Positions 5,401 through 49,134 of a stretch of DNA of 64,000 bases are shown one piece after another. The notes below the pieces were generated by a model. The model saw nothing but the letters and a program-made list of their open reading frames with translations. It searched no databases and had not been told where the DNA came from. Source of the DNA: Leucosporidium creatinivorum (lineage: Eukaryota > Basidiomycota > Microbotryomycetes > Leucosporidiales > Leucosporidiaceae); NCBI GenBank assembly GCA_001600635.1, contig BCKL01000003.1, positions 1,005,923-1,069,922 of the forward strand, written 5' to 3'. Both the position numbers and the translations under genes were made by a program. How positions within the stretch are numbered: position 1 is the stretch's first letter; every line of letters begins with the position of its first letter.

Positions 5401-5803
5401 TCAGCGCCGACCTCTTCCCTCCCTCGAAGAGCGACATCACCGCTTCGGACAACTGGTACAACTCGGCCTACACGAAGGCCGTTCCCAAGCACGGCAACAC
5501 GCTCGCCTTCCAGCTCATCGTCGACGGCATGAAGCTGCAGCCCTGCCGTCCTTCGTTCCAGGACGCTCGCGACGCCATCCTCGCTGTACGTTCATCTCCT
5601 CTCGATCTCGCGAAGAGCTTCACTGACTCTTCTCTCCCTCACAGGCCGACAAGGCGCTCACGGGCGGCGACAACGTCTGCGAGATCTGGAAGGGCTTCTC
5701 CAAGCGTGGACTCGGTCCCAAGGCCCAGGTCGTCGGCTCGACTCCCTGGGGAGGAGGAGTCCGAACTGCCGACAATTCACTCCCCAAGATCTGCTCCAAG
5801 TAG
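2498..5803 (+). CDS. Fungalysin (M36) secreted metalloprotease
   Basis: This is an extracellular zinc endopeptidase made as a preproprotein. Residues 1-27 look like a signal peptide: a basic [15 protein letters not shown] stretch. A long propeptide follows, with the FTP-like region containing [18 protein letters not shown]. The catalytic domain carries [17 protein letters not shown] (HExxH) and then [12 protein letters not shown], which supplies the third zinc ligand region. The protein ends at ICSK with TAG at 5801-5803. At least ten introns are needed, including a 9-nt exon (4523-4531, TNN) flanked by gtgagt introns. An additional gtgcgt...cgcag intron (about 5809-5864) seems to lie just after the stop. 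Fungalysins are usually secreted virulence- or nutrition-related proteases; the role here is inferred. Some internal splice sites may be off by a few bases. Confidence 0.93.
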
Positions 5804-6809
5804 AATCGGTGCGTTCTCTCGGCGCTTCGGCTTCGGGTTTCGCTGATCTCTCCTTCGCTCGCAGCTTCGCGCGGATGTAGACAGCTCCCCGTCCTCTCTA
5901 TTGCATCCCACCCTCTCATCATGATTCCCTTCGCCTGTTCTATTGTTACCTTACTTCGCCCTCTTGTGTCCTCATTCCGAACCTCGCCTATGAACGATGA
6001 AATTCTACTTACTTGTACAGGGCTCTTAGATGTGGGAGAGAGAGAGAGCGAAGGGAGACAGCGAGGAGAGTACGAGCTCAGCAAAGGGGCCCGCGATACA
6101 CGAGACTCGGCGCAAGGGTCGGCAGGCCATGCTTGAGGGGCTTGCAACTCAGCCAGAGGAGGCAGACGCCTCGGTCAAAGATCTTGCGAGGCGGTGAGTC
6201 CGCAGGAGTAGAACCTGGGCCTGTCAACGAGCTCGACACTGACAGCAACGCCGAGCTCCGCTCAAGCTCTCCCTTCGCGCTTGCATCTCGCCCGCCGCTC
6301 TTTGCAGCACAAGAGCATGCTTCTGAGGCATTCCGTGACATGCAACGACCTCCGGGAGATCCGACAGCCCGAGATGGAGTGAAGCGGAGGAAGCGCCGCT
6401 CGCCACCGCTTGCCCCAACTCGCGCCGATGCGGCAGTGTGAGTGCACTTTCCGGCGCCCCTGAGAGTAACAGGGGCTCGGTTTGGAAAACTACAGGATAC
6501 CTGGACCGCCTGCAGCTTGGTCAAGGTCTGCTGCCAGCTCAATCTTCTCAGAAGCACTTCTCGGCGAACGGAAGATGCTCCGGACGCTAGCGTCATGCCC
6601 TTGCTGCTTATTTTAGGGCATCCTCCTCAGCATCTTCGACGGCTGCGACCGCTTCCCAGCGGAGCTTCTCCTCCACGCTTTCGCAGCCAGAGCGGAAGGT
6701 GCGCCGAAGGGGCCACTTTGGAGCTCCGACCTCCACCTTTCTCTCTCCTTCCTCCCACACTCCCTCGTCGGGCTTCTTCGACTCGACTTACAGTTCCCGA
6801 CTCACCAGC
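5804..6809. other. Gene-free region upstream of the MFS permease
   Basis: About 1 kb with no supported gene. It starts with a likely 3' UTR intron of the fungalysin gene (about 5809-5864). The last 110 bases are open in frame with the permease (GTG-type codon at 6699), so the permease N-terminus could be longer if a start lies upstream. The rest is presumably promoter. Confidence 0.45.
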
Positions 6810-45914: not shown

Positions 45915-47545
45915 TCACTCCGGCCTCAGATGAATCCTCATATCCCCCACCGTCTCCATCGGATGCCCTCCATTCTTCTCATACCCCTCCCCTGGCCTCA
46001 ACCCCTCCTCATCACCCGACACGACCTCCTGCCCGAGCAGCTTGCCCTGCGTCCCTTCGCCGAGCAGGAACTCCCTACTCGCCTCGACGAAGGAAGCGAG
46101 CGCGATCTTGGGGTCAATTCGAGCGCCAGATTTGCGGGCGATGTATGGTTGGATCAGGGGGAAGTCGGAGAAGGAGAGGTGGATGGAGCCGACTGAGAGC
46201 GAAAAAGGGTGAGCGGGCGATGAGGGGAGGGGGGCAAGAGCAAGACGTACCGAGGGTGAAGAACCACGAAGGAGCGCCCTCGACGCCCTTGACAATGTTG
46301 CGTACCAGCTTCCAATGACTCTGCCAGAGGGTGAAGGCTTCCGAGTTGATGGCGAGGAGGGGGACCTTGATGTCGAGCTGCTCGGTCGGCGTCGAGGAGG
46401 GCTTGGCGGAAGGGGATGACTCGTGCGGCTTGTAAGGTGGGATGGCGTCGAGCCATGGGTCCAAAGCGATACCAGAGGTGAAGGGGAAGCGACTGCCGGC
46501 CCTCAGAGCCTGGAGGGTTGTAGCGCCGCCGAAGGAATGGCCGGTCATGACGGCGTTCTTGACGTCGATGCGTCCCTTCCAGAACGAGAGGTAGCGTCCT
46601 TGCTCGCGAAGGTTGGCGGCGGCGATTGCTGCTCCATCGCCATCGTTGATGCGCGAGACGAGGGCGAGCACCTCCTCGACCTCGGCTAGCCTCATCTCGA
46701 TCTGCTCCTTTCGGTGTTCGAGTTGCGAGAGCTTGCGGTTTGGTGGGTCGAAGCGGAGGTCCTCGGGCTTGATGTAGTTGACGACGCGCTCCTTGCCATC
46801 TCCGAGGCGCACCACGCTGATGGGACCGGAGCCGTCGCGGTGCTCGATGGCTGCGACGACGAAACCGAGGGAGGCGAGTTCGCCGCAGTATTGGCTGTGA
46901 GATCAGGCAAGGGTGAGCGGGATATAGTAAGTGATATGATGATCTGCAAGCTCACCTGTAGGTCGTCCTTCCTCCTCCCAAACCATGCGAGAAGACGATG
47001 AGAGGGAAGCGGTTGCCTTCTTCGTCTACGAGCGTACTCATCGAGCCCATTCCGACTTGAGGATCATCTCCTTCAATCCTCTCCCTCATCTCCTGCTGTC
47101 CAGCATCCTTCTTCAGTCCATCACCCTTGACGTCGGCCATTCGGTCGGCGAGGGGTACGTCGATCTCGGCCGGCAGCTTGGTCCGAGCGGCGAAGAGGAG
47201 GAAAGCGATGCGGAGCATCCATTGTGGCTTGTTGACGAAGCGAGCGAAGCCTGCCGAGGTCTGGCCCAGTGGTCGCTGCAGCCACTGCTGCTGCCCGTTG
47301 CCCTTCTTGTGCTCTGCGGCGGGTGCGAAGATGGTGCAGAGGACGGTGTCGAGTTGTAGAGCTGGTTCTCCGGTGCTAGCGAGTACTGCTGTACCGAAAG
47401 AGCGAGATTTGACGGGGATTTCGATGTCGGTCGTGGTGACTGCTCGCGCGAATCGGTCAGCTTGCCACCAGCAGCTGGCAGCGGTAGACTACACACCTTT
47501 GTAAGGGCCCGAGTACGGCTGTAGCGCTTTAGAGAGTAATCCCAT
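45915..47545 (-). CDS. Platelet-activating-factor acetylhydrolase-like lipase
   Basis: This serine esterase of the alpha/beta-hydrolase fold hydrolyses short or oxidised acyl chains of phospholipids in characterised relatives. It starts MGLLSKALQPYSGPYK, joined over an intron to VVTTTDIEIPVKS, the family's N-terminal strand. Then come PLIVFSHGLGGGRTTYSQYC (oxyanion region), ELASLGFVVAAIEHRDGSG, the nucleophile elbow MTGHSFGGATTLQALR, and GIALDPWLDAIPP with the catalytic Asp. A probable catalytic His is in VGSIHLSFSDF. The C-terminus is polar. It is head-to-head with PRE4, with only 142 bp between the lipase ATG and the first base of the PRE4 start codon. Confidence 0.88.
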
Positions 47546-47687
47546 CGTGTATCGAGTTGAAAGTAGCAGCGAGGTGAGCGTAAGAAGTCAAGCCCTAGTC
47601 CGCCAACTTGGCGGACTCGAGCTGACGACGAGCAGCCAGTCTGAGGGTTGCGCTCTTACTTTCCCGCTTGCTCTCGTCTCTAGCACA
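47546..47687. promoter_or_regulatory. Compact divergent promoter, lipase and PRE4
   Basis: These 142 bp include the non-coding part of PRE4 exon 1. A pyrimidine-rich patch (cttactttcccgcttgctctcgtctc) directly precedes the split start codon. It may act as the PRE4 core promoter. Confidence 0.4.
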
Positions 47688-49134
47688 AGTGAGCTCGCTT
47701 GACGACCTACAGCAAGCTCGTAGCTGACCCTCTGTACCACAGTGAACCACTTCCCATCAACCTCCTGGTGCGCTTCTCCTCCGCTCTCGTCGCTGGAAGC
47801 TCTGAGCTGACGAGCTCTCGTCTGTACTGCAGGGGAAAGCCCCGAAACGACTCGGTCGACCCTTACGCTTCTTTCCCTATCCACCAAGGTCGCCCTCAGA
47901 ACGCCGACGTCTTTGCTGATGGTGTACAGCGCACTCAGTGAGTAGTTACGCGTCCCTCTCGAGCGGAGCTTCGGCTCCGGCTTAAAGAGCTACAGGAAGC
48001 TGACCGCCGCTCTTCTGTACTATCACAGACAACCCATCGTAACGGGAACCAGTGTGTTGGGCATCAAGTTCAAGGGCGGCGTCATGATGGCTGCCGACAA
48101 CCTGGGTGAGCTCGAGCTGGCGCGTTCGGCTGTCGCGTTACAGCGGGCGCAGAGCGAGCCGTACGCATGCAGGAGCAATGCTAACCTTCCTTCACCACCC
48201 CACAGCTTCGTACGGCTCGCTCGCTCGCTTCAAGGACATTGTCAGGCTCCACCCCGTCGGCGAGCAAACCCTCCTCGGCGCTTCGGGCGACATGGCCGAC
48301 TTCCAGCAGGTCAAGCGACTGTTGGAGAACCTGATGTGAGCTGTCGCCCGCTCTCACTGCCCTGTCGCACCCTCCAGAGCTGACCTCCGCCCCGCCCATT
48401 ACGCGTGTCGAACAGCACGAGCGAAGCGCTGCAGGACGACGGCCACGCTCTCAACCCAAGTCAGATTTACGAGTACTTGAGCAACGTCATGTACCAGAAG
48501 CGCAGCAAGTTTGACCCCTTCTGGAACGCCTTCCTCGTCGGTGGACTCGACCACGACGGAGAGCCGTGCGTAACTTCTCATCTCGCTCTCTCTGCCATCG
48601 CTCACCTCCTCCAATCACAGATTCCTTTCTTACGTCGACCTCCTCGGCACCACCTACTCCTCCCCTTCCCTCGCAACCGGCTACGGCAACCACCTCGCTC
48701 AACCCCTCCTCCGCCGCGCGCTCGAGCGTCTCGGCCCAGAGGGCTACAAGAACCTCGAGGAGGACGAGGCGAGGAAGATCATCCAGGCGGCGATGAAGGT
48801 GTTGTTTTACCGTGATGCCAGGGCGTTGAACAAGGTGAGGGCGAGGGACGGAGGCGAGGCAAAGCGCCGAGAGCTGATCTTGACTCTTCTCAAACGCAGT
48901 TCCAAATCGCGACGGTAACGAAGAGGGGTGTGGAGGTTTCTGAGCCCATGGCGGCACCGACCGATGTGCGTAACCCTTTGCTATCGCTGCTTGCCCTTGC
49001 TGACCTCTGCTCGCTTTCGCAGTGGGCCTTCGCCGAGGGACTTCGTGGCTGTGAGGTCTTCCCTCTACGCCCTCCTCTCATGTTGCTGACCTTGTTCTCT
49101 CAAAGATGGCAATTCCGACGAACAGGTTGAATGA
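47688..49134 (+). CDS. PRE4: 20S proteasome subunit beta type-7 (Pre4/PSMB4)
   Basis: This is a non-catalytic beta ring subunit of the 20S core. The mature part starts QQPIVTGTSVLGIKF and continues GGVMMAADNLASYGSLARF, diagnostic for this subunit. Then come YEYLSNVMYQKRSKFDPFWN and SYVDLLGTTYSSPSLATGYG, and the end RGYGNSDEQVE*. Fungal homologues start MNHFP-x-WG-x-PRND. Here MNHFPSTSWGKPRND is obtained only if the A of the start codon (47688) is the last base of exon 1 and TG (47743-47744) opens exon 2. Exon 2 (47743-47767) is 25 nt. Several further short introns follow. It lies tail-to-tail with SUS1, 222 bp apart. Confidence 0.93.

Follow-up and report, generated by a model that had tools for sequence, protein, structure and literature searches.

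An intron within the start codon of the proteasome beta7 gene (PRE4) of Leucosporidium creatinivorum

Can the start codon of a core proteasome gene be absent from the DNA as a contiguous triplet, and, if so, would the gene be regulated through the splicing that assembles it? These questions are raised by PRE4, located in a 64,000-nt stretch of the L. creatinivorum genome (contig BCKL01000003.1; the window). The original prediction placed a 54-nt intron between the A (position 47688) and the TG (from position 47743) of the PRE4 start codon, and this arrangement was confirmed in the sequence. Exon 1 ends ...TCTCTAGCACAA, intron 1 reads GTGAGC...CTGACCCTCTGTACCACAG and terminates in ACCACAG, and exon 2 opens TGAACCACTTCCC, its 25 nt in full being TGAACCACTTCCCATCAACCTCCTG. 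Across the junction the joined exons read ATG AAC CAC TTC CCA TCA ACC TCC TG/G, encoding MNHFPSTSW. The locus is very probably explained by an ordinary, likely constitutively spliced, spliceosomal intron that happens to fall inside the beta7 start codon (phase 1, A/TG). The sequence, the gene model, a conserved N-terminus and start-proximal introns in sister genes form the basis from which we infer that intron 1 is spliced, that its splicing is constitutive, and that it is not regulated.

The PRE4 exon model (20S proteasome beta7; 47688 to 49134, + strand) was built by reading conserved exon junctions. It comprises 10 exons and 9 introns and encodes 274 amino acids, with a joined CDS of 825 nt including the stop codon that is open throughout (Table 1). 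The sole match to this stretch in the 27.7-Mb genome was the stretch itself, on contig C3. The assignment to proteasome beta7, also proposed originally, held: the product carries the proteasome subunit domain PF00227 (9e-32; residues 48 to 240), and among the best 60 of 177 matches to solved sequences it lay nearer to beta7 than to the other beta subunits, the top rows being yeast PRE4 and animal beta type-4, which we take to be animal beta7. Among the matches listed, the best protein match was a 20S proteasome subunit of L. creatinivorum (96% identity over 99% of the query). The mature chain begins TQQPIVTGTS, several solved beta7 chains starting at query residue 43 (T43), while two yeast chains (10mt_N and 8t08_Q) align to the product from residue 1.

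Table 1. Coordinates of PRE4 features in the window
Feature	Position	Strand	Basis
Exon 1, last base (A of the start codon)	47688..47688	+	Sequence; exon 1 continues upstream as 5′ UTR
Intron 1, 54 nt, phase 1 within the start codon	47689..47742	+	GTGAGC donor, CTGAC branch site, CAG acceptor
Exon 2, 25 nt: TG of the start codon, then NHFPSTS and two bases of W9	47743..47767	+	Encoded residues in 23/30 aligned relatives
Intron 2, 65 nt	47768..47832	+	
Exons 3 to 10 with introns 3 to 9	47833..49134	+	Open CDS, PF00227, 96% identity match
Exons 3 to 6	47833-47937, 48029-48105, 48206-48335, 48416-48565	+	
Exons 7 to 10	48621-48834, 48900-48965, 49023-49050, 49106-49134	+	
GTG in frame at the place of the ATG if intron 1 is retained	47742..47744	+	Context CACA-GTG-A; putative start

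Intron 1 carries a canonical donor and acceptor, and the good branch site previously ascribed to it was found as a CTGAC with the branch A 15 nt from the 3′ end of the intron; CTRAY was present 16 to 32 nt from the end in seven of the eight remaining PRE4 introns. Using a leave-one-out matrix (intron 1 being excluded when the matrix was built), its donor scored 9.06 bits, tied best among the nine PRE4 donors. Thirteen GT dinucleotides lie within 47548 to 47735, and those at 47689 (9.06 bits) and 47574 (11.14 bits) were the only two to exceed 2.4 bits. The stronger donor at 47574 (GAG/GTGAGC) counts against the preferred model and could indicate another upstream exon, spliced from 47574 either to 47683, leaving CACAA as a 5-nt exon ahead of intron 1, or straight to 47742; by eye, the TCTCTAG before position 47684 resembles an acceptor. 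Yet joining 47574 to 47742/47743 yields G/TG and no ATG, and the route through 47683 requires both the 5-nt exon and a transcript start no more than about 28 nt from the probable start codon (by eye) of a divergent gene, while leaving the split ATG the same. Additional upstream splicing of this kind is therefore highly improbable.

The two ends of intron 1 resemble each other (47684 to 47694, CACAAGTGAGC; 47738 to 47748, CACAGTGAACC). This likeness might be a trace of the origin of the intron or might merely reflect splice-site constraint.

For comparison of the N-terminus, 31 proteins were fetched from 120 listed (2968 matches in total), and 30 were aligned with the window protein; the Rhizoctonia model P0011, which contains internal repeats, was left out. 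The same protein occurs in other Microbotryomycetes and in rust fungi, and the start M[NDQE]HFP[SG]TSWGKP was found in 23 of the 30 aligned relatives (one of these, P0017, carries 15 additional residues ahead of the motif), in agreement with the claim that the product begins with the known fungal start MNHFPSTSWGKPRND; the comparison is of protein sequences. A chance match to an N-terminus common to so many relatives is implausible, which supports the rebuilt start. The seven exceptions were P0013, P0020, P0022, P0023, P0026, P0029 and P0040. Four of them (P0013, P0020, P0022 and P0026) diverge or begin precisely at GKPR, with which exon 3 opens. The residue before GKPR is R in two of the four models, as would be given by reading through the last bases of intron 2, and the read-through frame of the window likewise shows RGKPRND. 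Judging from these sequences, the four are probably annotation errors in which predictors missed tiny first exons, and they fit a split ATG without proving it, since predictors can equally overlook a short first exon that is contiguous. The 276-aa protein P0012, which begins MDHFPGTSWGKP, is encoded on a 921-base contig; it is probably derived from cDNA, since 276 amino acids in 921 bases leaves no room for introns. A search with P0001 for related genomic PRE4 DNA found no relative among the 5 viral-contig or 20 genome-contig stretches matched.

On the + strand, not a single ATG occurs between positions 47540 and 47918. That at 47919, the first to follow, starts an out-of-frame ORF of 10 amino acids, and the next two (48084 and 48087) are M62 and M63, so that apart from the rebuilt start no in-frame ATG lies upstream of M62, itself within the mature subunit. 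Splicing of intron 1 would join CACA-A to TG-AAC and thereby produce the sole ATG giving the full propeptide, in the context CACA-ATG-A. The canonical donor, branch site and acceptor, the N-terminus shared with relatives and the lack of an earlier in-frame ATG together support an intron inside the start codon.

The consequences of failed splicing were modelled for retention of intron 1, skipping of exon 2 and use of the AG at 47712 or 47723 (two of the three other AGs in 47700 to 47742, that at 47716 being left out). In every case the first ATG is that of the 10-aa ORF, followed by M62/M63, and a start at M62 would lose the mature N-terminus, given that several solved beta7 chains begin at T43. 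With intron 1 retained, a GTG stands in the same frame and is open for 274 codons, and an in-frame CTG (47724 to 47726) lies six codons upstream of it. Initiation at GTG would use methionine and would, on general grounds of non-AUG initiation, give the same protein, but weakly. Thus, the claim that translation can begin only after splicing stands for the ATG, which exists only in spliced RNA, and is slightly too strong given the remaining GTG. It could be proposed that 47689 to 47742 is not an intron at all but part of an unspliced leader translated from this GTG, which has an A at −3, or from the CTG. An in-frame GTG is, however, expected with any A/TG intron, since introns end in G; the donor, branch site and acceptor would all have to be coincidental; and, from general knowledge, a weak start is unlikely for a core proteasome subunit. 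Translation of an unspliced leader is accordingly extremely improbable.

Single retention of introns 2 to 7 gives products of 22 to 261 amino acids, and that of introns 8 and 9 gives 293 and 291 amino acids, respectively. Whichever single intron of the nine is retained, the product changes, and PRE4 therefore needs splicing whether or not its ATG is split. The original interpretation is thus partly supported: the consequence it suggested, that the arrangement could make proteasome synthesis depend on splicing efficiency, is weak, since dependence on splicing is common to all nine introns and not special to the first. The split start alters how a splicing failure looks, not whether the failure matters.

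A stronger form of this idea treats the split start as a regulatory switch: under some conditions intron 1 would be retained, silencing PRE4 and limiting proteasome assembly. It draws on the lack of a usable ATG, and on the short ORF opened by the first ATG, when intron 1 is retained. Against it, the strong splice signals of intron 1 do not suggest poor splicing, and retaining any other PRE4 intron changes the product too. The leader also offers no conserved element and no marked RNA structure: positions 47590 to 47770 fold only slightly better than shuffled sequences (z, −1.89; 12 of the 200 shuffles equalled or bettered the native fold), and no Rfam match was identified in the window at gathering scores.

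Upstream of PRE4, a perfect palindrome (AGTCCGCCAA-C-TTGGCGGACT) was identified at 47597 to 47617, about 70 to 90 nt from the split A. With up to 1 mismatch allowed, its 17-base core recurs nowhere else in the genome, and its half-sites were absent from the upstream regions (283 to 500 bases) of 12 other core genes, all but beta2. A shared proteasome promoter motif was therefore rejected, and the palindrome is possibly a transcription factor binding site. Approximately 142 nt (47546 to 47687) separate the A of PRE4 from the probable start codon (by eye) of the divergent minus-strand gene, so that a promoter would be shared. The divergent gene likely encodes a PAF acetylhydrolase, a fragment of it matching PF03403 at 2.2e-07.

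The 5′ ends of the 14 core-particle genes were modelled, largely by eye, from the loci found in a PF00227 search; a second alpha7 copy and two weak PF00227 matches on contig C16 fall outside this set. The subunit names (alpha1 to alpha7 and beta1 to beta7) are our presumptive assignments from motifs. The number of coding bases before intron 1 was 1 in beta7, 3 in alpha7 and beta5, 7 in beta4, 11 in alpha5, 15 in beta3, 27 in alpha3, 29 in alpha2, 43 in alpha4, 63 in alpha6, 67 in alpha1, 72 in beta6, 78 in beta1 and 81 in beta2. Acceptors were joined computationally for alpha2, alpha3, alpha5, alpha7, beta3, beta4, beta5 and beta7, and the values for the others rest on donor placement. In three of the 14 genes an intron interrupts or immediately follows the ATG (0.46 expected; post hoc Poisson P, 0.0115), and in six one lies within 15 nt of the start (2.29 expected; post hoc P, 0.0296), the expected counts assuming introns spread evenly at the intron density of PRE4. 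No CTRAY match was present in intron 1 of alpha7 or alpha2, and in intron 1 of alpha3 and alpha5 the motif lay 60 and 42 nt, respectively, from the intron end; these four introns are less certain than that of PRE4, owing to the absent or distant CTRAY. The post hoc nature of the enrichment, the placement of sister starts by eye and the alpha7 intron without CTRAY weigh against the preferred explanation, in addition to the donor at 47574.

Two alpha7 loci with equal match scores lie on opposite strands of contig C13 (near 5683 to 6548 and 109625 to 110490). The pair may represent a gene duplication or an inverted repeat in the assembly.

Ras-family genes served as a control. From 61 matches, 30 loci were fetched, and a scan for the P-loop motif gave eight places, of which the start was judged readable by eye in five (L033, L034, L041, L048 and, least surely, L055) and not in L036, L039 and L059. 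One of the five, in what is a small control read by eye, has an intron directly after the ATG. This gene, L041, is Rab-like and lies on contig C7 near 340986, where the sequence reads ATG/GTGCGC...GATGCAG/GCCGACGCG. Start-codon introns are thus not confined to proteasome genes in this genome.

These genes bear on both forms of the regulatory proposal. The introns directly after the ATG of alpha7 and beta5 would be in keeping with a switch acting on the proteasome; their occurrence in a Ras-family gene as well suggests that intron placement is biased generally and is no switch specific to PRE4, and such a switch is very unlikely. The start-codon introns of beta7 (A/TG), alpha7 and beta5 (both ATG/intron) could instead jointly make proteasome synthesis depend on splicing capacity. 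Of these genes beta7 would be the strictest gate, since its RNA, when unspliced, would lack the propeptide ATG and retain only the weak GTG, giving whole protein at a low level. Coupling of this kind is very unlikely. Under the preferred explanation, an ordinary intron within the start codon, PRE4 would exemplify a broader tendency of first introns in this genome to lie at the start codon or immediately downstream of it, and the start-proximal introns of the core genes and L041 fit the known tendency towards start-codon introns.

The split start of PRE4 is a correct observation and represents an uncommon gene structure of known layout; a regulatory role for it is conceivable but very unlikely. 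By sequence and protein conservation, PRE4 is a clear case of a conserved core proteasome gene whose start codon exists only in spliced RNA, and the 14 core genes provide a small set for testing any effect of start-codon introns on expression.

Introns that disrupt the start codon are described as relatively rare (Nielsen and Wernersson 2006, PMC1626468), which agrees with the rarity originally proposed. Like PRE4, the class in that survey with a phase 1 or 2 intron at codon 1 has a spliceosomal intron inside the ATG of a nuclear protein-coding gene; unlike the present single-gene case, the relevant passages of the survey make a general statement without gene names and include no PRE4 case. 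The phase-0 start codon introns of the same survey (ATG/intron) resemble that of PRE4: the gene encodes a short conserved protein, and the intron sits at its start codon. We read alpha7, beta5 and the Rab-like gene as members of this class. The PRE4 intron lies two bases further upstream, and its unspliced RNA is consequently without an ATG. An engineered ribozyme reporter (PMC12363958) likewise has its expression gated by a start codon rebuilt through splicing; as described there, it differs from PRE4 in being artificial, in using a trans-acting ribozyme, in splitting the codon into AU and G, and in sharing no common descent. PRE4 thus belongs to the rarer phase-1 form of start-codon intron, and the same genome also shows the commoner phase-0 form.
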